From a virus, in IMG/VR virus record IMGVR_UViG_3300035659_000038, positions 1 through 43,140 of that record: a stretch of 43,140 bases of DNA. One strand, written 5' to 3'. The position numbers were made by a program, and so were the translations under genes. The notes under the pieces were generated by a model. That model was not told the origin of the DNA, ran no database searches, and saw nothing but the letters and a program-made list of their open reading frames with translations. Shown piece by piece: positions 1,289-33,585 of the stretch (position 1 is its first letter; each line of letters opens with the position of its first letter).

Positions 1289-1303
1289 TTGGAGACATAT
1301 TAT

Positions 1304-3831: not shown

Positions 3832-4406
3832 TTGAGTTATATGGAGACGACTTTATGAAAAATCGTCATAAATATGCTTCTCGTGCCCCCATTATGTGTA
3901 AAGGTATTATAGATATTTGGCACCCTAAAACTCTTATAGATGTCGGATGTAGTATAGGGGATTTAGTAAAAGAGTACCTTGATAAAGGAATAGATGCCAG
4001 AGGGATTGAGGGTAATCCTGCCTGTATTAAGTATTTAGTTTGCCCTACCGATAGAGTTATTATTCATGATCTTACAAAGCCGATGGACACTTTACCTATC
4101 GTTGATGTTGCTACCTGTTGGGAGGTCTGCGAGCACATCGAACCCGAGTATATAGACATATTTATAAATACTCTCGTTCTTTTATCTAACACACTTGTAA
4201 TCAGTATTTGTTGTTATGGTCCTACTACCAAGCTACATCCAAGTGTATTCCCTATTAGTTTCTGGCTAAAAAGGTTCGAGCAAAGAGGCTTTCATAGAAA
4301 GCCCGAAAAAGAACTTCTACTTAGAGAAAAGTGGGAAACAATCAAGGGTCGAGGTGCTGTAAAAGAGCAATATAAAAATCTAATAATATTTGAGAGGACA
4401 CTATGA
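3828..4406 (+). CDS. Class I SAM-dependent methyltransferase
   Basis: A 192-residue protein. Motif I (LIDVGCSIGDLV, about residues 36-47) forms the SAM-binding loop, with an acidic residue (GIEGN, about 59-63) at the end of strand 2 and a motif IV-like CWEVCEHI (about 97-104). This arrangement is typical of Methyltransf_23-like small-molecule or sugar methyltransferases. No DPPY-type DNA motif is present. Placed between glycosyltransferase genes with ATGA overlaps on both sides, it most likely methylates a glycan or nucleotide-sugar product; that role is inferred. Confidence 0.8.
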   Translation: MIELYGDDFMKNRHKYASRAPIMCKGIIDIWHPKTLIDVGCSIGDLVKEYLDKGIDARGIEGNPACIKYLVCPTDRVIIHDLTKPMDTLPIVDVATCWEVCEHIEPEYIDIFINTLVLLSNTLVISICCYGPTTKLHPSVFPISFWLKRFEQRGFHRKPEKELLLREKWETIKGRGAVKEQYKNLIIFERTL

Positions 4407-5329
4407 CAGACCTTGCTGTAATAATCCCATTCGCTTTGGAATGGCCCCAAATAGTATTCACGATTAGGGCAGCACACGAAGATCTTGTTGGGATAGACCA
4501 CAAAATCATAGTGGTCGATAACTTCTGCTATGAGTTGGAACAACAAGAGAAGGTAAGAGATAGAGCAAGTACCCAGTTAGAAGATCTTGCTAAAAGATAT
4601 GACTGGTTGAACTATCTAACCTATCAGGAGAAGTTGAGTCATTGGTGCTGTAAGAACCTTGCGATTGCCAACACAAACGCAGATATCTTCTTGTTTTTAG
4701 ATGGACATGTTGTACCAAAACAACGATCATTAAGAGATGCGTTTACTTTTTATAGAAGAAACCACGAAGGGTTAGATGGAACTCTACATCTTCCACTGAC
4801 CTATCATATATTGGAGGAACACCAACTTATTTATAGTTTAGTGTATAAACCGGAAGAGGGGATCTGTCATTATACCTTCTGCGGTAAGCCTGAAACAAAT
4901 CAGGAGGTATTTGAAGTGCCCTGTATGAGCAGTTGCGGAATGTTCATGACCAGGAACCTTTATAATCTTATGGGGCAGTGGCATTCTTCAATGACCGCCT
5001 ATGGTGGTGGAGAAAATGACATGAACTTCACATTGGCAACTATCGGTAAGAAGCATTGGATTTACAATCCAGGGTGCCTTCACCACCATGGAGACAAAAG
5101 GGAGTATAGTTGGAACTGGTTAGGTTATAACTATAATAGGGCTCTTGCTACCTACAAGTTCGGTGGAGAAGTGTGGATGTGGAAGTATCTCGCTACCATT
5201 TCAAAGCAAGTAGACAAGTCCATACTACCAGGTTTAGTCAATATGGGAAATGAGATCATGAAAATAGTCGAAAGACCAAAGCATCATATTGTAATGACAA
5301 TAGAGGAATGGAGTGAAAGATGGCTATGA
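4403..5329 (+). CDS. GT2-like glycosyltransferase (GT-A fold)
   Basis: A 308-residue protein. It starts with the GT-A nucleotide-binding strand (LAVIIPFALEW) and IIVVDN near residue 36-41, followed by a DxD-equivalent in IFLFLDGHVVP (about 95-105). A later GGGENDMNF segment (about 210-220) matches the ED-type catalytic base region, and the C-terminal CLHHHGDKR supplies metal-binding His residues as in polypeptide GalNAc-transferase-like GT2/GT27 enzymes. That similarity makes a protein Ser/Thr acceptor possible but not proven. Four-base overlap with the methyltransferase upstream; ten-base overlap with the MT-A70 gene downstream. Confidence 0.8.
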   Translation: MTDLAVIIPFALEWPQIVFTIRAAHEDLVGIDHKIIVVDNFCYELEQQEKVRDRASTQLEDLAKRYDWLNYLTYQEKLSHWCCKNLAIANTNADIFLFLDGHVVPKQRSLRDAFTFYRRNHEGLDGTLHLPLTYHILEEHQLIYSLVYKPEEGICHYTFCGKPETNQEVFEVPCMSSCGMFMTRNLYNLMGQWHSSMTAYGGGENDMNFTLATIGKKHWIYNPGCLHHHGDKREYSWNWLGYNYNRALATYKFGGEVWMWKYLATISKQVDKSILPGLVNMGNEIMKIVERPKHHIVMTIEEWSERWL

Positions 5330-17379: not shown

Positions 17380-18342
17380 ATGGTAGTGAACACTACATTC
17401 GTCCCAGTCAGTTATACTGGTGAACTTTTCCTCGTTGGCAAGGGTGTCCAGACACCTCTACTTTCCCAGATTGGTGGGCTCAATGGGAGCAATGCTCGCA
17501 TCGTCCAAGATTGGGAGTTCGTAGAAGGTGTATTCTGTCAGCTAAATGCTGCGTCTATTCAGGATATTGATGAAGACGAAATGAACACAGCACCAACACC
17601 ATCCCAGTATACACATTCACAAGCCAAGAATTGTATTCAGATTTGGCGTGAATCTTACTCAATCGGTGATGCTAAGCTGGCTATGCCAGGTCGCGTAAAG
17701 ACAACTAACGCACAAGGTTGGTATGACTCTACACAGCCTCCTGCTATTCAAGATCCGTTGGCTGCTGAACGTCAGTATCACGTTCTACAGATGGCAACCA
17801 ATATAGAGCTTGCTTTGATTACAGGAACCAAGCAGATTGCTACAGCTTCTAACGTAGCACCTAAGATGGGTGGGTTCCTCGAGGCAGGGTTTATCACAAG
17901 CCACGTTGTAGATTGTGGTAGTGCTGATATTACCCGTCTCAAGTTCAACGAACTCGTCCGTAAGATGGTAGATGATGAAGTTCCTATGGATCAGCTTGTT
18001 CTATATGCTGGTTCTTATGTTCTTCAAACTCTGTCCCAGTTATTCACTTGGGCACCTGCTGACCGCAATGTTGGTGGGACCCAGTTGAAGGTTCTTTTGA
18101 CTGACTTTGCCCCAGTGGCAGTTCAGTTCATTCCAAAACTTAGTGCTCTTGATTCCGCACTGCTTCTACACATCAACGATGTTTATCCAGTATTTGCCCA
18201 AGTTCCTAGTAAGCCACTTGTTTTCCATGACATCCTTCCAGTTGAAGGTTCGGCACATCCTGAGATGATCACCACGATGTTTGGAGTTGATCGCGGTCCT
18301 CAAATCAGACACGGCAAGTTTACTAACGTAAAGTCTTCATAA
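17380..18342 (+). CDS. Major capsid protein (SU10 / DUF5309-like)
   Basis: A 320-residue protein with TAGGAG seven bases before the ATG, following the scaffold gene. The segment YTHSQAKNCIQIWRESYSIG resembles the N-Y/C-x-Q-I-F/W-R pattern of the SU10 major head protein family, and the later MDQLVLYAGSYVLQTLSQLF fits the A-domain helix. The length is typical for an HK97-fold shell protein. It ends VKSS. It should be the most abundant virion protein. Confidence 0.82.
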   Translation: MVVNTTFVPVSYTGELFLVGKGVQTPLLSQIGGLNGSNARIVQDWEFVEGVFCQLNAASIQDIDEDEMNTAPTPSQYTHSQAKNCIQIWRESYSIGDAKLAMPGRVKTTNAQGWYDSTQPPAIQDPLAAERQYHVLQMATNIELALITGTKQIATASNVAPKMGGFLEAGFITSHVVDCGSADITRLKFNELVRKMVDDEVPMDQLVLYAGSYVLQTLSQLFTWAPADRNVGGTQLKVLLTDFAPVAVQFIPKLSALDSALLLHINDVYPVFAQVPSKPLVFHDILPVEGSAHPEMITTMFGVDRGPQIRHGKFTNVKSS

Positions 18343-18353
18343 TAGGAGGTAGC

Positions 18354-18497
18354 ATGTCTTACACAGAAAAAAAGCTGGTAAGAGAGATAGTGCTAACTAA
18401 TCCTGCTATTCCTCCGATTTTGAGGGAGTTCTTTCAGCAGGTCGTCGCAGCTCTACCTGCTCTTACAAGTACCACTACAAGTACGACTACATCATAA
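18354..18497 (+). CDS. Small head-associated protein with TTTS tail, copy 1
   Basis: ATG 18354 follows AGGAGG. The 47-residue product has a charged N-terminus, the core PPILREFFQQVVAALPALT and a Ser/Thr tail (TSTTTSTTTS). It is clearly related to the next gene (shared MSYTEK, I-V, IPP-x-LR-x-FF-x-QVVA-x-LPALTSTT). Located directly after the major capsid gene, it may be a decoration or minor capsid component; that is inferred from position. Confidence 0.7.
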   Translation: MSYTEKKLVREIVLTNPAIPPILREFFQQVVAALPALTSTTTSTTTS

Positions 18498-18508
18498 GGG
18501 AGGTGTAA

Positions 18509-18910
18509 ATGTCTTATACAGAGAAACTCAGAGTTAGGACTATTGTCCAAGAGAACTCTGGGATACCTCCCCGTTTACGTGATTTCTTCAAACAGGTAGT
18601 GGCGTGGTTGCCTGCTCTAACGAGCACTACGACAAGTACGACAAGTACGACATCAAGTACAACAAGTTCTACTACGAGTAGCACCACTTCGAGTACAACA
18701 TCGAGTACAACATCTACTACAAGCACCACGAGTAGTACAACAAGTTCTACGACTTCGAGCACTACCAGCACTACCAGCACGACTTCAAGTACTACATCTT
18801 CAACCACGTCAACCACAACCAGTACGACCACGAGTACTACGAGTAGCACGACAAGTTCAACAACTTCGAGTACTACGTCAAGTACCACGTCGAGTACGAC
18901 AACATCATAA
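18509..18910 (+). CDS. Paralogue of the preceding gene with 96-residue Ser/Thr tail
   Basis: A 133-residue protein with GGGAGG upstream. Residues 1-37 repeat the preceding protein (MSYTEK...IPPRLRDFFKQVVAW, then LPAL). Residues 38-133 are exclusively Ser and Thr, arranged mostly as TTS or TTSS units and ending TTTS. Codons for Thr (ACA, ACC, ACG, ACT) and Ser (AGT, AGC, TCN) are mixed, so the tract is kept at protein level. It looks like a mucin-type stalk. With glycosyltransferases in the same genome, O-glycosylation is plausible. A gene duplication followed by tail expansion explains the pair. Confidence 0.75.
   Translation: MSYTEKLRVRTIVQENSGIPPRLRDFFKQVVAWLPALTSTTTSTTSTTSSTTSSTTSSTTSSTTSSTTSTTSTTSSTTSSTTSSTTSTTSTTSSTTSSTTSTTTSTTTSTTSSTTSSTTSSTTSSTTSSTTTS
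18620..18907 (+). repeat. Ser/Thr-coding degenerate tandem repeat
   Basis: 288 bases of degenerate (ACN ACN AGY/TCN) units within the 3' part of the 18509 gene. Unit lengths alternate between 9 and 12 bases. Stretches such as AGTACGACAAGTACGACA recur with small changes, so length variation between isolates is expected. Confidence 0.85.
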
Positions 18911-18918
18911 GAGGTGTT

Positions 18919-19047
18919 ATGGCAAAAGCACAACATAAGAACATAGGAGCCAATATCAAACGGCTCCGTCATAAAGGCTACCCAGAAAAACAGGCAATCG
19001 CTGTTGCGTTTAGTGAAGCTGGGAAAGGCAGAAAGAAAAAGAAGTAA
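18919..19047 (+). CDS. 42-residue basic protein, conserved phage type
   Basis: ATG 18919 follows AGAGGTG. The 42-residue product has the pattern NIGANIKRLRHKGYPEKQAI then AVAFSEAGKG and a Lys-rich tail. The 'RL+..GyP.KQAiAvA...AGkg' pattern is a small family I recall near phage head genes. Function unknown; the charge suggests contact with DNA. It ends just before a strong hairpin. Confidence 0.65.
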   Translation: MAKAQHKNIGANIKRLRHKGYPEKQAIAVAFSEAGKGRKKKK

Positions 19048-19059
19048 TATTGAAGTGGA

Positions 19060-19104
19060 AGTGGACGGGGAAGGCTTTCGCATTCTTTCACTTCTCCGTC
19101 CACT
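19060..19104 (+). terminator. Strong hairpin after the capsid gene block
   Basis: A 14-bp stem (19060-19073 with 19091-19104, one G-T pair) and a 17-base loop. No T tract follows, so it is not a standard intrinsic terminator. It may act as a partial terminator, an RNase barrier that stabilises the upstream capsid mRNA, or a processing site. Confidence 0.55.
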
Positions 19105-19123
19105 AACCATATAAGGATAAAAT

Positions 19124-19570
19124 ATGGCATATTCAACAGACGATGACCTAATCCAGTTTCGTCCTCAGATCATGAACAATGGTGTGATGGATTTCACAGC
19201 ATTTCATCAGAATACCGAAACGTTCATCAATACTATGCTCGAGTCAGAATGGTACCTTTCAGTGGCAGCAGACAGAAATGTTGATCCAATCACGGCACCT
19301 TTCGATCCAGCAAGGATGCTCGCTTCAGGTGCTCTGAAACTGAAATACTTATCGGTATGTAAAGTATTTGAATGGGTTTATCTGAGTCTTGCGAAGGATA
19401 CTCCTACTGAAGATGGATATTTCCAGTGGGCTACTCATTACAGGCAAGAGTTCAATGATGAGTGGGGTAGGCTTCTGAAAGCAGGAATCGACTATGATTG
19501 GGATAATCTTGGTACGATTACTGAAGACGAAAGATTTACTCAAAGGCACTGGAACCTTAAAAGATGTTAG
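19124..19570 (+). CDS. Head-tail connector protein
   Basis: A 148-residue protein starting MAYSTDDDLIQFRPQI after ATAAGGAT. The N-terminal 'Y.tdddL...rP.i' and the C-terminal helix FNDEWGRLLKAGIDYDWDN followed by a basic tail (FTQRHWNLKR) match the gp6/adaptor type connectors that bind beneath the portal. Position after the capsid genes agrees. The last seven bases overlap the next gene. Confidence 0.7.
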   Translation: MAYSTDDDLIQFRPQIMNNGVMDFTAFHQNTETFINTMLESEWYLSVAADRNVDPITAPFDPARMLASGALKLKYLSVCKVFEWVYLSLAKDTPTEDGYFQWATHYRQEFNDEWGRLLKAGIDYDWDNLGTITEDERFTQRHWNLKRC

Positions 19571-19992
19571 TTGGACTTCCGGAACTGATTACAAAGCTTC
19601 GGGCAATAGTAGATGTTGCCAACTGGCAGCCTACCCTTACCGAATGTGGTCAGGTAGTTAGAGACAGCATTCAATCAAAGACCGGTTCAGGTTTTGATAT
19701 TAATGATAAAAAGTTTAATCCTTACAGCCTGATTTATAAGAAGTTCAAGCAAAGTCGAGGGTTGTCTGGAACACTTGTCAACCTACGATTGACAGGAAAT
19801 ATGCTGGACAACCTCAAACAACAAACATCAGGAAACATCTGTAAAATCTTTATACAGGGAGGTTTCAATAACCAAAAAGCAAATCGCAATCAACAAGGTA
19901 AAAAGCCAAGGGTATTCTTTGGAATATCAACACAGGCACAACAAACTATACACGATATACTCGAAAAGCGTCTACAGGAGCTACTGAAATGA
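19564..19992 (+). CDS. Neck / tail-completion protein (HK97 gp10 or gpS-like)
   Basis: A 142-residue protein. The segment SGFDINDKKFNPYSLIYKKF followed by VNLRLTGNMLDNLK and RVFFGIST is the signature layout of the phage virion morphogenesis/gp10-like proteins, which join the head to the tail. It overlaps both neighbours by a few bases, in line with the usual connector cassette. Confidence 0.75.
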   Translation: MLVGLPELITKLRAIVDVANWQPTLTECGQVVRDSIQSKTGSGFDINDKKFNPYSLIYKKFKQSRGLSGTLVNLRLTGNMLDNLKQQTSGNICKIFIQGGFNNQKANRNQQGKKPRVFFGISTQAQQTIHDILEKRLQELLK

Positions 19993-20450
19993 AGCCAACG
20001 ACCAGAGAGATAATCACAACCAAGTTGCTTGATATTCTCGAAACATCGATGGCTCACAAAGTACTTCGAGGTAAGCGAAGCATAATCGAAAAGGAGTTTC
20101 AAACAATCTCTGATACTGATTTTCCTATCATCATAGTAGATGTGGGATTACCACAGCCAGAGATAAAGTTCTCTGATAAAAATTATGGAGTTGTAGACCA
20201 AGCAATATCAGAACTCAATGTTCAGTTGTTCTGCTATTTACGAGTTGAAGAAACAAAGTTAGGGCAAGAGGACCAAGTAGTGTCGGCATTCTTGTCAAGT
20301 TTATGGAAGGTTGTTTGTCATAATCCAAACATAGGGGATGCCCTAATGGTTATACCAACTTTCAGTAAATCACTGACCTATGATGGTCCTTACACTTATT
20401 TTACAACTAATCTAATGGTTAAATATCTCAATAGTCGGGATAGTATCTAA
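19989..20450 (+). CDS. Probable tail terminator protein
   Basis: A 153-residue protein whose ATG overlaps the preceding stop (ATGA). Beta-rich text with FPIIIVDVG near residue 46, then a mid-protein strand (ISELNVQLFCYLRVEE) and a C-terminal strand (YTYFTTNLMVKYL) fits the tail terminator/minor tail fold that caps the tube. Its place just before the tail tube gene supports this. No diagnostic motif, so the call is mainly by position and length. Confidence 0.62.
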   Translation: MKPTTREIITTKLLDILETSMAHKVLRGKRSIIEKEFQTISDTDFPIIIVDVGLPQPEIKFSDKNYGVVDQAISELNVQLFCYLRVEETKLGQEDQVVSAFLSSLWKVVCHNPNIGDALMVIPTFSKSLTYDGPYTYFTTNLMVKYLNSRDSI

Positions 20451-20459
20451 GGAGAAAAT

Positions 20460-20978
20460 ATGAGTACACCCCCAAGTGTTAATAACTACACTCTCGGTCG
20501 CGGCAAGCTTTCGATTGATGCTTATGGTGGAAGCAGCTATGTTGCTCTTGGCAACGCACCTTCGGTTGAAGTCAATGAGGCGGTTGAGTATCTGGAGCAC
20601 TTTAGTTCTCAGGCAGGTCTCAAGCTGAAGGACAAGAAGATTGCCACACAAGTTGGTGCTTCTGTCAACTTTGAACTTGATGAGCCAGTGCTCGCCAACC
20701 TCGTGTATTTCTGTCTTGGTGAGGTTGTTGGCAACAGCATTTATGCTTTGACACAGATTACCAAGGAATACAAGTTGAAGTTTGAGTCGTTCAATGGTGT
20801 TGGACCAAACGTGGTCTGGGAGTTCCCAAGAGGCATTATTACACCCAATGGGGCAATGCCATTGATTGGTGATGATTGGCAAAAGATTCCTTTGACATTC
20901 GAGTGTCTCGCTGATGTGGCTGGGAATCCTACAAGTCCATTCTTCACAATCACAGAGATAACAACCACAACGTCATAA
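20460..20978 (+). CDS. Major tail (tube) protein, ends in TTTTS
   Basis: A 172-residue protein with AAGGAG before ATG 20460. It opens YTLGRGKLSIDAYGG, followed by LGNAPSVEVNEAVEYLEHFS and DKKIATQVGASVNFELDEP, a pattern typical of siphophage tube proteins. The C-terminus ITEITTTTS matches the Ser/Thr ends of four other proteins here. Many copies stack as hexamers around the tape measure. Confidence 0.8.
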   Translation: MSTPPSVNNYTLGRGKLSIDAYGGSSYVALGNAPSVEVNEAVEYLEHFSSQAGLKLKDKKIATQVGASVNFELDEPVLANLVYFCLGEVVGNSIYALTQITKEYKLKFESFNGVGPNVVWEFPRGIITPNGAMPLIGDDWQKIPLTFECLADVAGNPTSPFFTITEITTTTS

Positions 20979-20994
20979 TAAACTAACGACATAA

Positions 20995-21028
20995 GGAGGA
21001 GTGGGTCAAGCATTCAGCCCACTCCTCC
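20995..21028 (+). terminator. Perfect 11-bp hairpin after the tail tube gene
   Basis: GGAGGAGTGGG (20995-21005) pairs perfectly with CCCACTCCTCC (21018-21028) around a 12-base loop. No T run follows. Like the hairpin after the capsid block it lies behind a highly expressed structural gene, so it may protect that mRNA or partly terminate transcription before the tail chaperone. Confidence 0.55.
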
Positions 21029-21079
21029 CTATGTTCAAAATAGGCAAAACAGAGTGTGTAAACACAAACAGGAGCCAAT

Positions 21080-21547
21080 ATGCGTAAGACAAAAGAGCTA
21101 CAAATCGAAATCGAAGACAACAAGGTCCTCAAGGTTGTAGTAAAAGAACTCACCTATCGTCAGCTTCTCAACCTCACTGAATCGTTCGAGATTATGAAAG
21201 TGCTTGGAGACCTAAAAACTCTACCAGGTGAGATCAAGAAGTTCCTTCAAGACACCCTAATCCCAATCTGTACTAATCTAACTTATGACCAGGTATTAGA
21301 TTTCCCACCTTCTGATGTTGATCTAATCATATCTGCGATTAGGGAGGTTAATGCCTCTTTTTTCGAGAAAGTGGTCCAACTGGACCCGATAACCTGGATC
21401 AAGCAGATTCTACGACAATACCAAACAAGGATAGTAAGCACGCTGGCGGTCAATGCTGGCTCCTCTGTTGTGAGCTCATTACAGCAGGACACATTGAAGC
21501 CCTCGACTATGGATACTCCTATGGACTCTCCGCCTATCAGCACCTGA
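21080..21547 (+). CDS. Tail assembly chaperone, unshifted form
   Basis: A 155-residue protein between the tube and tape measure genes, the standard chaperone position. The first 110 residues look conserved (beta start LQIEIEDNKVLKVVVKELTY, then helical text). The C-terminal 25 residues (LQQDTLKPSTMDTPMDSPP) look unstructured because the overlapping -1 frame carries real coding text there. It helps wrap the tape measure during tail assembly. Residues 94-95 are the Phe-Phe of the candidate slippery site. Confidence 0.8.
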   Translation: MRKTKELQIEIEDNKVLKVVVKELTYRQLLNLTESFEIMKVLGDLKTLPGEIKKFLQDTLIPICTNLTYDQVLDFPPSDVDLIISAIREVNASFFEKVVQLDPITWIKQILRQYQTRIVSTLAVNAGSSVVSSLQQDTLKPSTMDTPMDSPPIST

Positions 21548-21774
21548 TTACAAGTAAGCACTATAATCAAAGAGAGCTTGCTGTAGCGTGCCGAGCAGCA
21601 CAGCTTGATAAGAATGGTTGGCAGCAGTGGTTCAAAGCCGAACCTCCAAAACCAAAAGATCAGCAAAAGATAGCAACATTGAAAGATCTAAAACAACGAC
21701 TACCCGCAAGATGTTTCAAGAAGAGGAAGCGTAATGCCAAACGATATAAGTCAACTCCTGGAAATTCTACTTAG
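21080..21774 (+). CDS. Tail assembly chaperone, -1 frameshift fusion
   Basis: If ribosomes slip back one base at T TTT TTC (21358-21364), translation continues in the frame that is open from 21352 to TAG at 21772-21774, giving a 231-residue fusion. The -1 frame encodes convincing protein: CWLLCCELITAGHIEALDYG, YSYGLSAYQHL, then a Trp-containing helix (LDKNGWQQWFKAEPP) and a very basic end (CFKKRKRNAKR). It has no start codon or ribosome site of its own. The overlap with the tape measure start (41 bases) is also usual. Lambda G/GT and P2 E/E' are the known precedents; P2 uses T TTT TTG. Confidence 0.75.
21358..21364 (+). promoter_or_regulatory. Candidate -1 ribosomal frameshift site (TTTTTTC)
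   Basis: In the zero frame the heptamer reads T TTT TTC, a canonical X XXY YYZ slippery sequence. It is only 6 bases past the last stop of the -1 frame, so it lies at the start of the possible shift window. Confidence 0.65.
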
Positions 21775-24700
21775 CTTTGATGGGAGTGGAGCACTCGATC
21801 AAGTTGACGCTCTGATAAAGGGTTTTACATCCTTAGATACACAAACTAAAAACACAGATAAAACCCTATCAGACCTTACCAAGTCTCTTGATAGTATTAC
21901 AGGTCGAACACTACCGAATCTCAAGAAAACATTCAACGATGTAGTTCAGTCTCAAAAAGCGTTCGTCGATATGGAGAAGACTAAAATCAGTGTTCTCCGT
22001 GATTTAGAACAACAAGCACAGAAGACAGGGGCTGCCCTTAAGGAAGCACTCTCGATTACAGGTACCAATCTTACAGCTTCTATAAGGGCAGCCTCGTCTG
22101 CCTTACCCGCAATAGTAGGTGGAGCCCTTGGTGCCGCTGTAGGAGGTGCTGTAGGTGGAGGAGCAGGAAAAGCAGTAGCGGCTCCAATAAGCGTAATGCC
22201 TTCACCAGAAGATGTTTCTAAAAGTCAAGCAATCTTGGACAAGTTGTTTGGTCCAAGGAAGGTTGAAGTCGAAGTAGATAAAGGCAAGATTTCCGAAGAT
22301 ATTAGTGATGCTATTCAGGTTGGAGTAGCAGAGGGAACGAATAGGCTCAATCAAGAGTTAAATAAGCTAAATCTTGGAACACCAACAGGAACTCCACCAG
22401 GATCACCAGCAGGAACTCCACCAGGATCACCAGCAGTCAAGGTAGGAGGCTTCACTCCTCCAGAAGAAACTCAAGACTCATTAGAAGGTGGTAAAAAGGC
22501 AGGGTATGAATTTACAAAAGGGTTTGTTGAAGCATTTAACAAAGTGATTCCAGATGTAAATTCTACGATCGACTTTATTGCTCGAAATGCTAGTAAACTT
22601 GGTAGTGTATCTTGGCTTGTAGACTGGAATAAGCAAACCTTGGAGTTGGCAGAGAATTACAAAGGAAGTTATCAAGAGGTTCAAAAACTTGATTCAGTTA
22701 TTTTAAGAGCAAGTCAAGATCAGAGTGATTACTCTGTGTTTTTGACAAAAAGCACTGGAGAAACAGAATACCTTGTAAAAGATAATAAGGTTTTAAATCA
22801 AACCTTGTTGGACCAGCTCAACACTATTATTAAAATAAATGAGTTCAAATCTAAAGCACCTCTCCCTACTACGCCGATCGTAGGTGAAAATCCGATCGGT
22901 TTCTATCCATTAGGTCCAGGTGGAAAGCCACCAACAGAAGAACTTGCCACTGACCAGAAGACGATTGAGCAACTGAAAAAGGAGCTAAAGGATTTAGGAA
23001 ACACAGGAGAAAAGACAGGCACAGAACTAAAGATGTCGTTCTTTGGTGTGGGGGAAGCAATAACCGCCCTTATCCCTGTAATAACGGCAACATCAATTGC
23101 TATAGTAGTAAATCTTCCCAAAATCGCAACATTACTAAAAAAGGGATTTGTTGAAGCAGTAAGTGGAATATCCTCACTATTCAAGGGTATAATGAAAGCA
23201 GGCAAAGTAGCAGGTGATTACATTGCCAACTCTTTTGCCTCCGTTGGAAGCTCTATTAAGGCAGTTTTAGGTAGAATACTTAGCTTCTTTGCTCCAATTA
23301 CTGCCTTACTATCAACAACTTTCAGCATTTATGGGATTGAGAGGTTTAGCAAAGCACTTCTTAAGTTGGGATCAGAAACAGAGCAAACACAAAAAAGGTT
23401 GTCTCTTTTGTTTAGTTCGACTGAAGACGGAGCCAAAGCATTTAGGGATATCTATGAGCGAGCACAGCAGTCTGGTATCAGTATAAAAGACCTGACCACT
23501 GCTACGGAAGAGTTTGCTCTGATTATTGGTAAGAAGGGTCCAGAAGCAGTTGGGCAGTTCGTAAAAGCAGCAGCAGATATTAGTGCCTATACCGGACTGA
23601 CAATGGAACAGACCACTCAATCTATTCAACAAATGTGGGAGAGTGGAGCAGCAGCGGCAAGGCAGTTCAAGACTCACGGCGTTCTTGAGATGCTTGGGTT
23701 CCAGCGAGGTGTTGAATACTCTATTGGAGAAACACGGAAGAAACTAACAGAAGCATTCGGTGAAGAAACATTAGCACCTTTCACTGGTGCTGCCGACAAA
23801 ATGAAGTCCTCATTCGAGGGACTAACGAATACTCTTCTTGGATTCTGGGAAGAGTTCGAACACGCTGTACTTGGTAGTGGAGTATTTGATTGGATCAAGG
23901 CAGCACTTGGTGTTCTGGTTGATAGAGTATCGGGGCTAAAGAAAGACACCAAGGACTGGGGAGATATAACCTCCTCTGTTGGTGAGTTCATTGTGAATGC
24001 TCTTGAGGGTGTAATCAAGGCAGGTGGCTACGCAATAGATCTGTTTAGAAAACTAAAAGAAACAGGTTATGCCTTACAAGAGGTTTATGCTATTATTGCC
24101 TCTAAAATAAACAAGTTCTTCTTGGGAGCACTTGAATCGGCCAAAGAAGCAGTCAAGAGTTTAGCAGAACTTTACAACAAAGTAATTTATGCTTTGACTG
24201 GTGATATCAGTAAGCTAATCAATGTAAATACTTTGGATGAAACCATAAAGGCACTCAATCAAAAGAATCAAAAGTATTGGGATGATACAGCCAAAGAAGC
24301 AAAGAAGGCTATGGAAGCACTGGTTCGTATGCCGAGTGCTATGGGTGAAGCGACTCGTATACTCGATGATATTCGAATCAAGATAGTTCAAAATAAACTT
24401 GAACAACAGAAGCTAAATCAGGTACTATCAGACCAAAAGGCTATCAGTGATGCCAATAAAAAGGCAGAGGATGATAGATGGGCATCCGCAAAGACCGCTG
24501 CCCAGAAATACGCACTTGTGGTAGAAGGGCTTTCAGGGCTCGCACGATTACGGGAAGACACAGCAGCCCTGAAAGCCGAGTTAGCAACACAGCAGGCATT
24601 AAAGGAAGAGTTCTTTGCGTTGGGGCTACAAGGAGTAAGAGCCTATTATGACAATAAGCTTCAACTTGCTCAAAAAGAGATTGATGCCGAATCTGAACTC

Positions 24701-25735: not shown

Positions 25736-25736
25736 A

Positions 25737-27029
25737 GTGCCGAGTATCAATCAGTATTACACTTCAGGAACAATCCTAACTCCATTGGATGGTGGCGGTC
25801 TTCTTGAAACGATTAGACCTTTGATAAAAGGAACACAGGTCGTTCTCGAAACAATCGATAGTACGCCAGATGGGTTTATAACCTCATTTAGTGGAACATT
25901 GGCTAACTTTCCCTGTACTCCGAGAAGGCTGGTTATTACTTATACAATATCGGGGACACCTTACACCTGTTCTGACGATGGAATGGGCAACATCAGCGAC
26001 GATGGAACACCCTCCTACCTAACAAGTGGAACAATCGTTCATGCTGATGGCTCCTGGACACTTACCTTCAACACACCGCCAGATAATCTTTCCGATATTA
26101 CCGCTACCTATTGGTATGGGATACCAGGAAGAGACTGGGTTGAGTTAGTTTATAGAAACTCAAGAAATAGTGTTGGTAATGATGTTGCTCTAAATGATGG
26201 TGGGGCAGGACACGGATGGACACCTGGCAGCTGTAAAGAGGCAATCTTCCACAACACAGGACTTTCAGGAACAGAAGATGTTTATATTGGAATAAGAGAG
26301 TGGAAGGACGTTCCTAACAACGCTTATGGTTGGGATTTAAATGTTTATACTAACTACACACCTGCTCAACAATGGAACGCCAATAGTGCTCAACATGGAC
26401 ACTCTGCGTTCTCGGCAACATACAATCATTGGAGTGAGATGCCATTGTTGCCTCTTGCCAACTCAACAATGGGCTACTGGTTGTTTAGCAATAGACAGAG
26501 GATTATAGTTGGAGTAAGAGCAGCCTCAAGATATCAGGAGTGCTATCTTGGATTTATGCGTAGATATGGGACACCAACACAATATTCCTGTCCAGGTGTT
26601 GCCAAGGGCACCCATTACGGAGACATCAACTATACTAATGTCAATTGTAAGATGATTGCGAATGTCGGGACATCGAGTGGCTACAGCCTTTTAGGTATAA
26701 GACCAGATAATACCTACTTTGATTTATCAGGCTCGCATGATATGATTATGCCTCCTCGATATAACTTCGACGCTACACCAGGGATTATAGCACCAACAGC
26801 GACATTAAATAGAACGCCAATGACACCAGTTTATATAGCAGAACTTGGCACTGCCAATGTCCTTTATGGAGATTTGGATGGAGTCAAGTTAGCATTTAGT
26901 AATGGTATAACAGCAGAAGATGTAATGACTGCCGATAGCATCAAGCACATTATATTCCCTGACCCAAATCTAAATAACTATTACGACTGGATTGCGATTG
27001 AACAAGAATATCAAACTACTACTTCATAA
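25737..27029 (+). CDS. Tail-associated structural protein ending in TTTS
   Basis: A 430-residue protein with a GTG start (AGGAG six bases upstream). It is beta-rich and Tyr/Trp/Asn-rich, with EDVYIGIREWKDVPNNAYGW and YWLFSNRQRIIVGVRAASRY then YLGFMRRYGTPTQY, a pattern I recall from phage structural proteins of unknown role. The last residues are EYQTTTS. It follows the tape measure, where distal tail proteins are encoded. No enzymatic motif. Confidence 0.65.
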   Translation: MPSINQYYTSGTILTPLDGGGLLETIRPLIKGTQVVLETIDSTPDGFITSFSGTLANFPCTPRRLVITYTISGTPYTCSDDGMGNISDDGTPSYLTSGTIVHADGSWTLTFNTPPDNLSDITATYWYGIPGRDWVELVYRNSRNSVGNDVALNDGGAGHGWTPGSCKEAIFHNTGLSGTEDVYIGIREWKDVPNNAYGWDLNVYTNYTPAQQWNANSAQHGHSAFSATYNHWSEMPLLPLANSTMGYWLFSNRQRIIVGVRAASRYQECYLGFMRRYGTPTQYSCPGVAKGTHYGDINYTNVNCKMIANVGTSSGYSLLGIRPDNTYFDLSGSHDMIMPPRYNFDATPGIIAPTATLNRTPMTPVYIAELGTANVLYGDLDGVKLAFSNGITAEDVMTADSIKHIIFPDPNLNNYYDWIAIEQEYQTTTS

Positions 27030-27038
27030 GGATAACCT

Positions 27039-28064
27039 ATGACTTTCAGCGATCTCCCAGTATTGACAACAGCCACATATACAAACCTTGCTGGAGGCAC
27101 AGAGTACATTCGAAGGCTAAGGAACTTCTTCTCGACCTTGGGATGGACAGAGAATGAATGGCATGACAATAATGTGGTCTGGAAAACCCTTACCCCATTT
27201 GGCTGGATAGCAGGAAGCGAAAGTTTCCTTGATGTCAGCACAACAGGATATGGAGCACAGGCAATACGCTTCAACTTTAGAATGGAACTCTCTGATGCCA
27301 CAAGGCACAAGTTGTGGATTGCTCCCGTTGATCCAGTGGTTCCCAACTACTCTCTTCAAGCAACTCGACCTTGTGCCCAGACCAGTCCTCACCATGTGTG
27401 GCAAGCCCCTGGTTACTTTCATGGAACTAATATGCCAGCAGGAACTATTCCACAGGTATGGTTCTTTGGAAATGCTCACTTCTTGGCATCGGTTATTCAA
27501 TGTACAACGGGCACAAACATAATCTGGGGACTTGGAAGCCCAACCCTGGTCGATGAGTACCAGTCAAGAACCGATCTCTGGTTTCAGTGGTTGCCACAAG
27601 TAATAGGCGACCCAATGATCTCTAGTCAGTATTGGGATAATATGCTCTCCAATCCAACTGCCTGGTGGAATGGATTCTCTTATCCATTTTTGGATAACCC
27701 TGCGAGTGGAGCAGCTTATGCTTATGTTGAGTCTGCTGTAAGAGATCAAACAAACTATTATTATTATACTAATGCTTGCCAAGGGCAGAATGCTCTTACA
27801 ATAACTGGTGGTAAGTTTGACAACCTCAATCAAATCGCATTGTTCAATAGTTTCTCCAATCAAAGACCTGGAATCATTCCAAGCATCTATATCAAGAAGG
27901 TATCAACACAGCAGTGGAGCAGAGTTGGTATGCTTCCCTTGGCTTATGTAAGATCGTCAGGAATAGCGATAGGAGACGAACTCGATTATGGAGGTCAAAC
28001 CTATATTGCTTTCCCAAATCGTTATTCTACTGATACAACAGGGGTTATATTCAGGGTCAGCTAA
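27039..28064 (+). CDS. Tail-associated structural protein, unknown role
   Basis: A 341-residue protein starting with AAGGAT upstream. It is rich in Trp, Tyr, Asn and Pro (PCAQTSPHHVWQAPGYFHGT, DLWFQWLPQVIGDP) with no catalytic motif. The early FFSTLGWTENEWHD resembles a motif shared by phage virion proteins. Overlaps the next ATG by one base. Probably part of the distal tail. Confidence 0.6.
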   Translation: MTFSDLPVLTTATYTNLAGGTEYIRRLRNFFSTLGWTENEWHDNNVVWKTLTPFGWIAGSESFLDVSTTGYGAQAIRFNFRMELSDATRHKLWIAPVDPVVPNYSLQATRPCAQTSPHHVWQAPGYFHGTNMPAGTIPQVWFFGNAHFLASVIQCTTGTNIIWGLGSPTLVDEYQSRTDLWFQWLPQVIGDPMISSQYWDNMLSNPTAWWNGFSYPFLDNPASGAAYAYVESAVRDQTNYYYYTNACQGQNALTITGGKFDNLNQIALFNSFSNQRPGIIPSIYIKKVSTQQWSRVGMLPLAYVRSSGIAIGDELDYGGQTYIAFPNRYSTDTTGVIFRVS

Positions 28065-29134
28065 TGGTTATAAAGCAGGGTATTCTCAATAACAATAACA
28101 CATTTAGCCTCGTGGCACCAAATATGCTATCAACACCTATCAATAAGCAGACTCTCGATTTAGGTATGACCGAGACAGAGTTCAAGCAAGGGTTAGGGGA
28201 ACTTGGACCATACCTTTATGAGCATCTTGATAGTTCGCAACATTACGATGGTATTTATGTTGGTTATCCAGAGGGATTGCTTTACAACAGAATCTGGGTA
28301 AGACCACGTGAGGTTGATGGTGGGTTTATTATTGCCGATGCCAACTTTCCGATATCACTTTGGAATGCTTATCAATATAGTTTCGTGTCAATGACCGATG
28401 TTCAGGTTGAGAATCAACCAGGGACAACGCTAACCTATCCACACTTACCATTCTTGTTCGGTCCAATGGGTGAGTTATCAGTTGTGCTAACAATCCTCAA
28501 GTTTGGACCCTCTCTACAAAGCACCCAATGGAAGCTAACAATAGCGGGTGTTGAATATGTAATAGACGTGTTTGGGCTTCGAACGCTTGGATTGCCTGAT
28601 ATTCATAACTGGGTTGAAAATCATACAATGATATATAAATTTGAGACACTTATATATCAATCGGCTACACTGAAGGAGCAACGAAGACCTTTACAACTCG
28701 AGCCGACAAGAGCAACAAAGATTGGTTTCCTTGTTCAAAGAGTTTCGTCAGAGATCTTCTTCAATAGATTGAACTATGGGCACGACAAGGTGTTTTCTGT
28801 CCCAGTTTATAACGAGCCAATCGTGGCAACTTCTATTCCACAAGGTGGAAGCACCCTGACTTTGACAACCGATACAACCGACTTGTACGACTTGAATAAC
28901 TTTGCCGATTATGTTTGCCTCATTCAGGCAGAAGATAACTTGATTGAAGTGCTTCAAATCGATTCTATCAGTCAATACTCAATAACAACCACAGGGAATG
29001 TTGTATCACTATTTACTCCAGAAAAAACGACGATTTTCCCAGTTTTTTGGGGTGTTCTAACTAACCTTGAGATCGAACATGCTACAAGTGTGGTAGATAG
29101 AATATCAACAGAGTTTCAGGAGTACAAGGCATAA
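28064..29134 (+). CDS. Tail tip protein, first of the tip module
   Basis: A 356-residue beta-rich protein. The region LIYQSATLKEQRRPLQLEPT resembles the 'S...EQRR.LR..PR' segment found in tail tip proteins that precede DUF2163-type genes. The C-terminal half (SIPQGGSTLTLTTDTTDL) contains Ser/Thr strands. One-base overlaps on both sides (TAATG) show tight coupling with the rest of the tip operon. Confidence 0.65.
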   Translation: MVIKQGILNNNNTFSLVAPNMLSTPINKQTLDLGMTETEFKQGLGELGPYLYEHLDSSQHYDGIYVGYPEGLLYNRIWVRPREVDGGFIIADANFPISLWNAYQYSFVSMTDVQVENQPGTTLTYPHLPFLFGPMGELSVVLTILKFGPSLQSTQWKLTIAGVEYVIDVFGLRTLGLPDIHNWVENHTMIYKFETLIYQSATLKEQRRPLQLEPTRATKIGFLVQRVSSEIFFNRLNYGHDKVFSVPVYNEPIVATSIPQGGSTLTLTTDTTDLYDLNNFADYVCLIQAEDNLIEVLQIDSISQYSITTTGNVVSLFTPEKTTIFPVFWGVLTNLEIEHATSVVDRISTEFQEYKA

Positions 29135-29775
29135 TGGACAATCTTCAAGACCTTGCTTCACAGCCATTGTTTTCATTTGCCTTTGATTGGAGTACACAGC
29201 CAAAGACAACTTCGACTATGCTTCGTAGGTGGTTCTTTTATCCAGGGACAGCACAGAAGTTATACAGCCTTAATCCAATAGGGGCAATCAACGTTAACGG
29301 AAGTCTTACATTCTTTACACACGCAGAGTTGAACCTGTTTCTGGATTTTATGAGAGCAAGAAGAGGTAGAGTAGAAAGGTTTTGGATAAGACACCCAAAG
29401 CAAACATTTACACTAAAGACAACAGCGGGAACAGGTACGCTTGTTTTGGTTTGTCAAAGAAATGACTTTCAACTCCCATGGCAAGGCTATGAACGAGTCT
29501 ATATAACGATGAACAATGGAGATACAATAACACAAAAGATTACAGGTGTTTATGATAACATCCTTGGTGATCAGTTAGAAATAACTCTACAACATCCTTT
29601 AGATAGAGATGTATTTGTTGATACCCTATTTACGACAAGAAACTATAACTCGATTGGAAGATTGCTGTTAGTTCGATTTGAAAGTGATGAGTTTGAGATA
29701 AAGAGTATAACAGAAGGAATATCTCAAGTTGATATCCAAGTGGTCGAACTAATCAAGGATTATGGAGATCTATAA
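29134..29775 (+). CDS. Distal tail / DUF2460-like tip protein
   Basis: A 213-residue protein. FLDFMRARRGRVERFWIRHP is the pattern 'f..f...r.GR...Fwi..p' of tip proteins that hold the tail tube end, comparable to the DUF2460 protein of gene transfer agents. It lies directly before a DUF2163-like gene, matching that order. The DUF number is given by comparison of pattern and context only. Confidence 0.6.
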   Translation: MDNLQDLASQPLFSFAFDWSTQPKTTSTMLRRWFFYPGTAQKLYSLNPIGAINVNGSLTFFTHAELNLFLDFMRARRGRVERFWIRHPKQTFTLKTTAGTGTLVLVCQRNDFQLPWQGYERVYITMNNGDTITQKITGVYDNILGDQLEITLQHPLDRDVFVDTLFTTRNYNSIGRLLLVRFESDEFEIKSITEGISQVDIQVVELIKDYGDL

Positions 29776-30581
29776 TGACACTTGCGACAAATATGGAAGA
29801 TACTCAACAACTTCAAATGCCCGAGTTCTACCAACTTTCGTGTGGGTCAAGACACGAGTACTGGACTTCGGGAAAGGAAACACTATTCTGGGGTGCTCAT
29901 GATTGGATTGCGGCACCAATAAAAAGGACCACGCTTTCAAGAGATAACGACTTTGGAACAATCAGTATAACAATCACTACATTCATTACTGATCTACTTG
30001 GTTCGTTTATTGCGAATAATCCGATTGAGCCTTGTGTTATCACTATTTATAGAGCTTTAGAAACTGATCTTACTGACCTGGCAACAATATTTAGTGGGGT
30101 GGTAAAGGATATTAGTGTCAAGGATAGACAAATCCAGGTAAGATGTGAAGCACAAGCACAATACCTAAAGAAGAAGCTGCCGAAGTTTATCTATCAATCG
30201 TTTTGTAATCATACTCTATTTGATACCGGTTGTCAGGCAAACCCTAACCTATTCAAAGTGAGTGATCTGGTCTCACTTGTTAGTGGAGCAGACATTATTG
30301 TTCCTGCTGCTGCTACAAAACCAGATGGCTATTTTATTCAAGGAAAGGTTGTTGCTGACCAAGATATCAGGCTTATACTCAACCATGTTGGCTCAACATT
30401 GACTCTACAAATACCCTTTGATAGTAGAGTGGGACCAGGAACTTCTGTTGTTGTATATGCTGGATGTGATAAGGACCCAGCAACCTGTATAGGGAAGTTC
30501 AATAACTTTGATCACTTCTTTGGTTTCCCTTATATTCCTAACAAGAATCCTGTGATCGATGGATTCAAGGTAAATGTGTAA
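29775..30581 (+). CDS. DUF2163 (BR0599-like) tail tip protein
   Basis: A 268-residue protein. The middle NHTLFDTGCQANPNLFKVSD and the C-terminal YAGCDKDPATCIGKFNNFDH then FFGFPYIPNKNP match the Cys-containing signatures of this family (C..l.D..C and gCd....tC..kF.N...F.GfP..P). Family members form the hub-adjacent ring in GTA-like and other siphophage tails and may bind an iron-sulfur centre or metal through the four Cys. Confidence 0.82.
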   Translation: MTLATNMEDTQQLQMPEFYQLSCGSRHEYWTSGKETLFWGAHDWIAAPIKRTTLSRDNDFGTISITITTFITDLLGSFIANNPIEPCVITIYRALETDLTDLATIFSGVVKDISVKDRQIQVRCEAQAQYLKKKLPKFIYQSFCNHTLFDTGCQANPNLFKVSDLVSLVSGADIIVPAAATKPDGYFIQGKVVADQDIRLILNHVGSTLTLQIPFDSRVGPGTSVVVYAGCDKDPATCIGKFNNFDHFFGFPYIPNKNPVIDGFKVNV

Positions 30582-31069
30582 TGTACTACTTCGAAAACGA
30601 GCAACATTGGCAAGATTACAAGGTAGTCCTAACCTCTTGGATTGGGACACCATATAAACATTGTACTTGTGTCAAGCAGCGTGGTGCTGATTGTACATTG
30701 TTCATAGCTGCTGCCCTTGTGGAGGTCGGTGTATTCACTTCTATGCCGAAGTTTGAATATTATCCGAAAGATTGGTTTCTTCACACAGATAACCAAATAC
30801 TTTTAGAATCAGTCAAGTATCATACGGAAAACTTGTTGAGTTCTAACTGCGAGTTTGTGGAACTCCCCTTGGATACACCACTTATGAGAGGCGATATGAT
30901 TCTTTTTACAACAAGAAACCCAGAAATACCTAATCATTCAGGAGTTTATTGGGACGATCAAGAGCAGTTTATTCATTGTACCCCTTGGAAGGGTGTCTCA
31001 ATGAGGCACCTACAATCTGGGTACTTCGAGTCAAGAGTACATAACATATTTAGAGTAGAGGAAGTATAA
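30581..31069 (+). CDS. NlpC/P60 family tail peptidase
   Basis: A 162-residue protein. The catalytic Cys is C38 in RGADCTLFIAAAL, after GTPYKHCTC; the catalytic His is H119 in NHSGVYW and the third polar residue is H132 in FIHC. RGDMILF before the His is also typical. These enzymes cut peptidoglycan stem peptides and help DNA entry. Two extra Cys near 28-30 are unusual. The gene lies between the DUF2163 and hub genes, as in gene transfer agents. Confidence 0.88.
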   Translation: MYYFENEQHWQDYKVVLTSWIGTPYKHCTCVKQRGADCTLFIAAALVEVGVFTSMPKFEYYPKDWFLHTDNQILLESVKYHTENLLSSNCEFVELPLDTPLMRGDMILFTTRNPEIPNHSGVYWDDQEQFIHCTPWKGVSMRHLQSGYFESRVHNIFRVEEV

Positions 31070-33348
31070 TGGGAGTTGAAACAATAATAGGATTAGCAGT
31101 TGCGGCTGTTGTCCTTGCTGTAATAGGAGTAGTGGTTGCCACAACCAAGCGTTCTTTACAAACTGACAAGATGGCACCTCTTGGAGCAGACCAGTTCCAG
31201 ATTACTCAAAATGCTGAAGGTGAAGCAGTTCCAATAATCTATGGGACCAATAAGATTGTTTCAAATATCCTTTGGTGGGGCAATCTACGATCAGAAGAGG
31301 TAAAAGAAAAGGTTCAAGGTGGTAAGGGTGGAGGAGGAAGTCAATCAACTACAACTGGTTATAACTACTACATGGACATCTGGCATGGTCTTTGTATGGG
31401 ACCAGGAGTTAGCCTATTAGCAGTTCTTGTCAATAACGATTACACAATCGACCTTGCGAAAGCACTTGGGACTTACACACTAAATCCAGGTAGTAGTTCA
31501 TTTTATCCAACTGAACCAGGTCCTTATGCTAACAAGTTAGCAGGAATGGCACACCTATTTCTTGATGGCTATTTTGCTGGGTTCAATACTAACTCAATAC
31601 CAAATCTGAACTTCATAGTTCAAAGAACGATTACTTCTCCAATAACTGGTGCCAATATGTCAAATGGTACCAATCCAGCAGCAATCGTTTATGACCTTCT
31701 AATACAATCTGGTGTAGAGGTTGGACAGATAAATCTCACCTCCTTCCAAACTGCTGCTGACTACTGGACCTCAAAGGGATATGGTCTCAATCTTGTACTA
31801 AATCAACAAAGTGATGTTCAAGATCTAATAGCAAAGATCTTTACCTATGTTGATGGAGCAATGGAGCAGGGTCCTGATGGAAAGATTTATCTAAAAGCAT
31901 ATCGAACAACTGACTTATCAGTAGCTACACTAACTACCGACGATTATAAAGACTTCACATTTATTAGAAAGAGTTGGGACAGCACATATAATGACTTTAG
32001 GGCAAACTTTATTGATGATACTCAACAATATACACAAAGAACGATTACAAAAGATAATCAAGCTTCGATTAGTCTTATTGGACATAAAATCCAGAAAACA
32101 ATAGATTTATCAGCATTTAGAGATATTCTAACCGCGTCTAAAAGACTAACCGAGATTATGAACATTTACTCCTATCCAGAGGCACAAGTACAATGCGTAG
32201 TCGGAATAAAATATCTTTCTTTGAGGGTTGGCGACATTGTGTCAGTCAGCAACACCGAATATGGTATCAGCAATGCGAGCTTCAGAGTAATCAATGTTGA
32301 TGAAGATGATGTTGATAATAATAGTGTAAGGCTTGTATTAGCACAACAACTCGAAACACTATTCGATGATACATTCGAGGTAGCAGGTGGGACCTCATGG
32401 ACACCACCAGACCTTGACCCTGTTCCACTTGCTTATCAGAAGATTTATGAAATACCAGCAAGTGGTCAGTTTGGAAATACGCCAATGTGGTGGTGCTTTG
32501 GGGCAAGAGTCGGTCAAGAAGATGGGTTTGCCATTCTAAAGTCGATCAATGGTGTTGATTGGTCTCAAATAGGAACATCGACAACATTTGCTGTAAGGGG
32601 AACCCTGAATACCACCTACCCAGCAACCACTTATACAATAGACGACGAAACAGGAATAGTATTTACTCCTTACAGATTAGATGGAGACTGGGACAACCTA
32701 AGCAGAGCCAACTTATTTGGAACCAATCGATTTGCTCTGATTGGAGACGAAATAGTCTCATTCCAAAGTGTTATTCCTTTTGGTCCTACCTCTTATAAGT
32801 TGCTTGGAGTGATCAGAGGAGTACTAAACACAACCATTGCCTCACATTCAGGAGGTGCTGAAATATGGTTGAGCCACTTTGCTGCTGACGATGGAGTTAT
32901 AGGTGCTTTCCATAACAGCACATTCTATGTCAAGTTCGTTCCATTCTATGGAAGTAAGATAGTATCAGAAGTAAGTTGTACTCCTTTGACAGGGTATTAC
33001 ACAGGGAAGGAACTCTATTCTTGGGCACCAGCAAGACTGGTCGCAACAAGAACAGGAGTCAATATAAGTGTAAAGGTTTATCCGACTAATAGAATCATTG
33101 ACAAGGGGGCAGGATTTACAGCAGTCCAACAAGATTGGTGGAATGGAGCCTGGACCTATGAATATGACACCCATCAGTATTATACATCTTATAGTGGGAC
33201 AATAATTCAAGTAGCACCAGCCTCTACACCTCTTACAATATCACATGCTGGAGCATTTACATTATATGTTAGATCAATGTTCCACGGATTTACAAGCGAA
33301 TACCTACCTGTTTCTATCGGAGCAGGTGATGGTGTTTATTATGGATAA
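31069..33348 (+). CDS. Central tail hub / baseplate protein
   Basis: A 759-residue protein. It begins with a hydrophobic stretch (IIGLAVAAVVLAVIGVVVAT, residues 4-25) and then the conserved EAVPIIYGTNKIVSNILWWG of tail-hub proteins. The middle includes LNLVLNQQSDVQDLIAKIFT then YVDGAMEQGPDGKIYL, typical for the hub segment, and YLSLRVGDIVSVSN as the beta-barrel region. The end carries fibronectin-like beta text. It is the docking site for fibres and the point where DNA exits. Confidence 0.83.
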   Translation: MGVETIIGLAVAAVVLAVIGVVVATTKRSLQTDKMAPLGADQFQITQNAEGEAVPIIYGTNKIVSNILWWGNLRSEEVKEKVQGGKGGGGSQSTTTGYNYYMDIWHGLCMGPGVSLLAVLVNNDYTIDLAKALGTYTLNPGSSSFYPTEPGPYANKLAGMAHLFLDGYFAGFNTNSIPNLNFIVQRTITSPITGANMSNGTNPAAIVYDLLIQSGVEVGQINLTSFQTAADYWTSKGYGLNLVLNQQSDVQDLIAKIFTYVDGAMEQGPDGKIYLKAYRTTDLSVATLTTDDYKDFTFIRKSWDSTYNDFRANFIDDTQQYTQRTITKDNQASISLIGHKIQKTIDLSAFRDILTASKRLTEIMNIYSYPEAQVQCVVGIKYLSLRVGDIVSVSNTEYGISNASFRVINVDEDDVDNNSVRLVLAQQLETLFDDTFEVAGGTSWTPPDLDPVPLAYQKIYEIPASGQFGNTPMWWCFGARVGQEDGFAILKSINGVDWSQIGTSTTFAVRGTLNTTYPATTYTIDDETGIVFTPYRLDGDWDNLSRANLFGTNRFALIGDEIVSFQSVIPFGPTSYKLLGVIRGVLNTTIASHSGGAEIWLSHFAADDGVIGAFHNSTFYVKFVPFYGSKIVSEVSCTPLTGYYTGKELYSWAPARLVATRTGVNISVKVYPTNRIIDKGAGFTAVQQDWWNGAWTYEYDTHQYYTSYSGTIIQVAPASTPLTISHAGAFTLYVRSMFHGFTSEYLPVSIGAGDGVYYG

Positions 33349-33351
33349 TAT

Positions 33352-33585
33352 ATGAAGTTATCACCGACTCAACTCGAAAAGGTTCGTTATAGTGCTGAAG
33401 GCTGGACGAAGATACTCAACTTCAACTTTCAGCTAATGAACGATAGCCTGCTTTATGTAAATGCTCTACAAGATGTTAGTATTGTTGGACTGGCAGATAA
33501 GCAAGTGCTCAAATACTCAACAGGAGATAGTAAGTGGCACAACGTCAGTAGCGGTTTTCTAACTTCAACAACCACCACCTCTTAA
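33352..33585 (+). CDS. Small tail-associated protein, repeat family copy 1, TTTTS end
   Basis: A 77-residue protein. It shares with the next two genes a common layout: a short helix with GW-x-x-I-x-N, then LLYVNALQDVSIVGLADKQV, then LKYSTGDSKWHNVS. The latter half matches the 'L.DV...gl.dgqvL.w....kW' repeats of phage virion proteins. It ends LTSTTTTS. Likely a small fibre-base or tip component. Confidence 0.65.
   Translation: MKLSPTQLEKVRYSAEGWTKILNFNFQLMNDSLLYVNALQDVSIVGLADKQVLKYSTGDSKWHNVSSGFLTSTTTTS

Follow-up and report, generated by a model that had tools for sequence, protein, structure and literature searches.

Threonine- and serine-rich C-terminal tails on virion proteins of an uncultivated phage lineage are probable acceptors for phage-encoded O-glycosylation

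Why should several virion proteins of one virus end in the same four residues? The question is raised by the IMG/VR virus record IMGVR_UViG_3300035659_000038, of which we analysed positions 1 to 43,140 (43,140 nucleotides, hereafter the window). Exactly five open reading frames (ORFs) of the window encode a C-terminal TTTS, all on the plus strand and each of plausible size, with stops at 18497 (..TSTTTSTTTS), 18910 (..SSTTTS), 20978 (..EITTTTS), 27029 (..EYQTTTS) and 33585 (..TSTTTTS), just as an earlier note on this DNA had listed them. We propose that these ends are probably the short form of mucin-like tails at protein C-termini, serving as acceptors for phage-encoded O-glycosylation. A pattern search of the record itself returned five hits on the forward strand, none on the reverse strand and none for the reversed control. 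TTTS ends occur in 5 of a selected set of 50 genes, whereas no internal TTTS is found in 12,288 other residues, a count that leaves out two Ser/Thr-rich post-capsid proteins, PC1 and PC2, and gives way to a conservative internal rate in the calculation. The probability of at least five such ends among 50 genes is 8e-15, or 9e-12 for four of 49 when PC1 and PC2 are counted once. The 18 left-arm genes have no TTTS end, which speaks against an equal rate in non-structural genes. The Thr codons of the tags vary from gene to gene, as had been claimed, yet four of the five use TCA for Ser and all five have TAA as stop codon. The count of five separate proteins stands for the ORFs but not for the families: PC1 and PC2 resemble each other over their first 37 residues and are paralogues, so the independent tagged families are four: post-capsid, tail tube, post-tape-measure structural and small tip protein. 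PC2 does end in TTTS, but is far more than tagged, carrying a run of 96 Ser/Thr codons that the note had missed.

Across the lineage, such tails are of low complexity, range from 10 to nearly 100 residues, use mixed codons and lie outside the conserved domains of the structural proteins; the tags of the window stand at the short end of this range. Closest among the tube relatives is L033, with 46% identity and its genes in the same order; its tube and its post-capsid protein both carry poly-Thr tails. A capsid-protein scan of IMG/VR, where most records in the comparison are fragments, yielded 79 further relatives. Tails were scored where enough sequence lay downstream of the capsid gene, and 55 of the 76 readable relatives bear Thr- or Ser-rich C-terminal tails while 21 do not (L187, Ser-tailed by a loose rule, was corrected by hand). 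Tagged relatives exist for all five window proteins, which disposes of the possibility that orthologues lack the tails. Tagged post-capsid proteins occur in about 50 relatives, and the Thr tails of tube relatives occupy the same position as the tag of the window tube. A profile of T-tailed relatives, built with the window excluded, matches residues 3-424 of the protein after the tape measure (E=4.5e-110) and stops immediately ahead of the tag; the tip protein is likewise matched (E=2e-10) by a profile made from T-tailed proteins of other lineage members. Second post-capsid copies with very long, near-pure poly-Thr tails, parallel to PC2 in the window, were seen at L130:3382-3744, L156:4521-4877 and L158:2396-2749. 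Among the IMG/VR tube relatives collected by a broad alignment, 79 of 80 have no tails; the tag is therefore a trait of the lineage and not of the protein fold, and the exact letters TTTS are the version of that trait in the window phage. The tube and post-tape-measure relatives in the isolated phages L025, L028 and L029, and in L031, have no clear tails. When IMG/VR was scanned with the tube or the capsid protein as a single sequence, no matches came back, and alignments were required. A first scan of genome contigs with the tube was also empty.

Could the phage itself modify these tails? Between 1289 and 5329, the window encodes three glycosyltransferases, GTa, GTb and GT2, and a methyltransferase (MT), in the order GTa-GTb-MT-GT2 that recurs in many GTa-bearing relatives. 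Structural modelling yielded a confident GT-B model for GTa, whose nearest structural matches are GT4 enzymes, MshA and BshA among them, and the predicted substrate of the methyltransferase is likely the glycan. In contigs of at least 30 kb, glycosyltransferase Pfam families are found in 9 of 10 tail-bearing phages versus 2 of 29 others (p=2e-6); L151 was scored tail-less at first, and moving it to the tail-bearing group gives 9 of 11 versus 2 of 28 (p=1e-5). By profile, 9 of the 12 tail-bearing contigs of this size have a member of the GTa family, remote in two of them (G003 and G008, E about 1e-48), against none of the 26 tail-less contigs. Orthologues of the window GTa in tail-bearing phages share 33-45% identity with it, and a search of 50,697 annotated phage records returned no match to the protein. 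For the reverse test, IMG/VR was scanned with GTa without regard to capsid or tail; 36 loci were retrieved, most of which have tailed ORFs in their flanks. Runs of six threonines occur in 19 of 24 whole GTa records versus 2 of 26 controls (p=2e-7), on a single strand in each record. A scan of genome contigs with GTa gave four loci, three of them with both GTa and GT2. None of the 58 cluster proteins inspected is tailed. Clusters of the relatives also hold hexapeptide transferases, other methyltransferases, UDP-sulfoquinovose synthase-like epimerases and sulfotransferase-like proteins, as expected for a variable glycan locus.

Within this cluster, GT2 resembles protein Ser/Thr glycosyltransferases. 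Polypeptide N-acetylgalactosamine transferases (ppGalNAc-Ts) bind their metal through a DxH motif and a third His. In an alignment of 22 GT2 sequences, D100 and H102 of the DxH motif and H228 are invariant, and GGE(N/H) is present in all. The GT2 profile, searched against PDB sequences, retrieved the ppGalNAc-Ts T10, T9, T4, T12, T7, T1 and T2 with E from 2e-6 to 0.03, some of these matches spanning most of the catalytic domain; the top match, a beta-1,3-GlcNAc-transferase (PDB 6h1j), covers the N-terminal part only. Single glycosyltransferase sequences run with phmmer against PDB gave nothing useful, whereas the profiles succeeded. The AlphaFold model of GT2 has a mean confidence (pLDDT) of 94.2, with helices only past the catalytic domain. 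Structural similarity search of PDB using Foldseek returned ppGalNAc-Ts as all 50 matches listed, many of which are repeat entries of the same enzymes, with TM scores (query) of 0.64-0.74 and E down to 9e-16. GT2 thus resembles these eukaryotic enzymes (CAZy GT27) in its modelled GT-A fold, the DxH with third His, the GGEN motif and its putative Thr/Ser-rich acceptors; it differs in sharing only 11-16% identity with them, in having no C-terminal ricin-type lectin domain, and in being phage-encoded and presumably cytoplasmic. This likeness to a protein Ser/Thr glycosyltransferase and the reverse GTa test are the most independent support for glycosylation of the tails.

Several further loci bear on these enzymes and tails. 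A GT2 homologue lies between the terminase and portal genes of Tunturiibacter phage Tunturi_4 (L032, 1567-2565; GT2 profile E=4e-28), and no Thr tails were found on the structural proteins checked in this phage. At L192:6904-8142 and L196:6034-7296, epimerases similar to UDP-sulfoquinovose synthase (E about 1e-98, below the equivalog cut-off) sit in phage glycan clusters beside sulfotransferase-like genes, and such phages might possibly carry a sulfonated sugar on their virions. At L241:6689-15727 (DIKO01000052.1, Desulfobacteraceae bacterium UBA5616), GTa, GT2 and a Thr-tailed protein adjoin genes for bacterial gluconolactonase-like, FAD oxidoreductase and citrate transporter proteins; judged by this gene content, L241 is likely a prophage and would hint at Thermodesulfobacteriota as hosts of the lineage. 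The DNA pattern for TTSTTTS followed by a stop hit 17 loci, mostly by chance, L011 alone being real. In this seemingly unrelated virus contig, three adjacent small proteins (4596-5511) downstream of a probable capsid gene each combine a fibre-like GDxxY..W motif with a Ser/Thr mucin-like tail; neither GTa nor GT2 was found in its 15 kb. Judging from L011, the Ser/Thr-tail trait may have more than one origin.

In the model that we favour, flexible Thr/Ser tails would project from the post-capsid protein, the tail tube, the post-tape-measure protein and the tip proteins. Acting in the host cytoplasm, GTa, GTb, the methyltransferase and GT2 would attach a glycan to the Thr/Ser hydroxyls and elaborate it. 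GT2, with its polypeptide GalNAc-transferase-like build, is the likeliest initiator, and the others would extend and methylate the glycan. The resulting virion, partly covered with sugar, could be shielded or altered in its adsorption or stability. We infer the glycosylation itself, along with its residues, sugar, enzyme and purpose, from the tails, their conservation and coordination, the linkage between cluster and tails, and the glycosyltransferase folds and motifs. A wider proposal is more tentative and falls just short of an even chance: that the lineage runs a mucin-type protein O-glycosylation of its own, in which a GT2-like enzyme starts glycans on Thr-rich tails and a variable cassette (extra glycosyltransferases; methyl-, acyl- and sulfotransferase-like enzymes; UDP-sulfoquinovose synthase-like enzymes) makes phage-specific coats, somewhat like O-antigens.

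A number of points weigh against glycosylated tails. The reading derives from sequences and models, and the glycosyltransferase cluster could act on DNA or the host surface instead. Roughly half of the tail-bearing contigs tested, all of 30 kb or more, lack GT2 or hold an unrecognised version of it, so it is not a universal initiator, and the initiating enzyme may differ between phages. L166 (49 kb) and L151 (37 kb) are tail-bearing and have no glycosyltransferase of these families, although both are perhaps fragments. On the capsid tree, a single lineage holds most of the tail-bearing phages; because of this shared ancestry, the association of tails with glycosyltransferases rests on few independent events, which weakens the statistics. 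Finally, the window tags on the tube and post-tape-measure proteins are very short, with 4-5 Thr/Ser.

In another explanation, the tails are unmodified, disordered, hydrophilic bristles for solubility or spacing, and the glycosyltransferases are co-inherited for a different role on the host envelope or DNA. Low complexity and variable length would suit bristles, DNA or host-surface roles of phage glycosyltransferases are discussed in passages of PMC12619734 and PMC10202952, and a shared lineage could produce the tail-glycosyltransferase association. We nevertheless consider bristles unlikely, since GTa found without capsid or tail information predicts Thr runs, GT2 resembles a protein Ser/Thr glycosyltransferase, and S/T-only tails of coordinated type exceed the needs of a generic bristle.

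This coordination is apparent within genomes. In 30 non-redundant genomes, the last residue of the post-capsid protein is identical to that of the tube protein in 67% of cases versus 26% when permuted (p about 5e-5), and the two tails are correlated in Ser fraction (r=0.82) and acidic residues (r=0.72); the permutation test leaves the relatedness of the genomes in. For instance, unrelated proteins of L151 end in ..SSASSESSTP and ..SASSASSESSASTP, three tails of L159 end in TTTAP, TTTTAA and TTTAP, and both proteins of L129 and of L161 have Ser-Asp/Glu tails. Between phages, the last residue may be S, T, A, V, E, P or G, some branches are Ser-rich and some tails are Asp/Glu-rich. On the capsid tree, which is quick and rough and places the window on a long branch, tail state and Thr/Ser type each require three changes.

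The same variation bears on the idea that TTTS is a docking or assembly tag, recognised either by a partner protein as the particle assembles or by a protein of the host. The exact T-T-T-S-COOH common to four families of the window and the coordinated last residue are what such a tag would display, but the last residue varies between phages, entire tails shift to a Ser-rich or Asp/Glu-rich composition, lengths from 10 up to almost 100 residues are too great for a docking motif, and no candidate receptor was identified, all of which makes docking very improbable. Of the roles that the earlier note had offered, namely glycosylation site, docking tag or exposed patch, the first is thus well supported by the two-way linkage of glycosyltransferases and tails and by GT2, whereas a docking tag of fixed sequence is disfavoured. 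All four Thr codons have roughly equal shares in the tails, and adjacent identical codons are rarer than in shuffled tails (0.238 vs 0.299 +/- 0.012), which favours selection at the protein level over simple repeat expansion. The spread of a functionless Thr-rich repeat between genes, by expansion or by gene conversion, would account for the widely varying tail lengths and for the within-genome coordination, but is hardly credible given this codon usage, the different codons of the five window tags, the location of tails on structural genes immediately before the stop, and the single strand on which the Thr runs of each record lie.

Glycosylated tails have a counterpart in cultured phages. The mycobacteriophages Che8, Corndog and Myrna encode glycosyltransferases and carry O-glycans at the C-termini of virion proteins, including capsid and tail tube, as outlined in passages of PMC12619734 and PMC12363180, which attribute this C-terminal glycosylation to Freeman et al. 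2023. The earlier remark that a shared tag fits no known assembly scheme overlooks this system, at least as those passages present it. The window, known from sequence alone, likewise encodes its own glycosyltransferases and has virion proteins, the tube included, with Ser/Thr C-termini; the capsid and tube proteins of Che8 also both end in Ser (..FNKTGS and ..YSDGS). There are differences as well. Profile search detected no relationship between Che8 gp108-110 and either GTa or GT2, and the Che8 structural proteins checked have no Thr-rich tails. The window capsid protein is untailed (NVKSS) and at least four other families are tagged, that of the next-encoded protein among them, and tails of the window lineage are mucin-like, up to 96 residues, with a genomic signature that marks a large uncultivated lineage. 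Since the Che8 enzymes show no recognisable likeness to GTa or GT2 and the Che8 proteins end in TGS and DGS, the window system would resemble that of the mycobacteriophages in its working rather than by demonstrated membership. Siphophages of Eggerthella, propionibacteria and mycobacteria with an SU10-type capsid have a homologous major capsid protein (22-29% identity), but the stretches read in Mendokysei and EL753P1 are without Thr tails. The literature searched, which was incomplete, yielded no account of tailed-phage virions with poly-Thr or mucin-like tails.

Coordinates of the features are collected in the table below. Elsewhere in the window, an Endonuclease VII-like gene, possibly a homing endonuclease, lies between the portal and scaffold genes (16064-16528); a tail fibre of 1510 residues has long collagen-like repeats (34271-38803); and one ORF (42242-43015) resembles an HNH endonuclease in its N-terminal part and a sigma factor in its C-terminal part.

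Table 1. Features of the glycosyltransferase cluster and of the tagged and neighbouring virion proteins (aa, amino acids; SAM, S-adenosylmethionine).
Feature	Coordinates	Strand	Length (aa)	Basis and remarks
GTa, GT4-type (GT-B fold) glycosyltransferase	1289..2617	+	442	PHROG 2170; AlphaFold pLDDT 91.4; Foldseek MshA/BshA, E about 1e-13
GTb, second group-1 glycosyltransferase	2869..3831	+	320	PHROG 2170; weak Pfam group-1 matches; order kept in relatives
Class I SAM methyltransferase (Methyltransf_23)	3828..4406	+	192	Above Pfam cut-off; cluster position conserved
GT2, polypeptide GalNAc-transferase-like glycosyltransferase	4403..5329	+	308	Motifs, profile, AlphaFold model, Foldseek
Major capsid protein, SU10_MCP family	17380..18342	+		PF17236, E=4e-24; ends NVKSS, no Thr tail
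PC1, post-capsid protein	18354..18497	+	47	Thr/Ser tail 18465-18494 (TSTTTSTTTS); paralogue of PC2, relative of L033:1381-1545
PC2, post-capsid protein	18509..18910	+	133	Pure Ser/Thr tail of 96 consecutive codons, 18620-18907; paralogue of PC1
Tail tube	20460..20978	+	172	PHROG 807; NCBIfam tail_tube_6XGR above cut-off; ITTTTS directly past last conserved segment
Structural protein after tape measure	25737..27029	+	430	PHROG 687; tag QTTTS
Small tail-tip protein	33352..33585	+	77	Tag TSTTTTS; profile match, blastp relatives
Untagged tip-protein relative	33632-33835	+		Ends ..FEHRIY; same tip profile, E=8e-9
Untagged tip-protein relative	33835-34062	+		Ends ..PGKSPL; same tip profile, E=2e-4

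As far as the literature searched goes, glycosylation of tailed-phage virions is firmly known only in a few mycobacteriophages. The combination of Thr/Ser C-terminal tails and GTa provides a sequence signature that marks a broad uncultivated lineage; since it names acceptor proteins, sites and candidate enzymes, the frequency and purpose of phage glycosylation become testable. A small soluble GalNAc-transferase-like enzyme, if GT2 is truly one, would be informative on how mucin-type glycosylation arose, and would be a useful tool.

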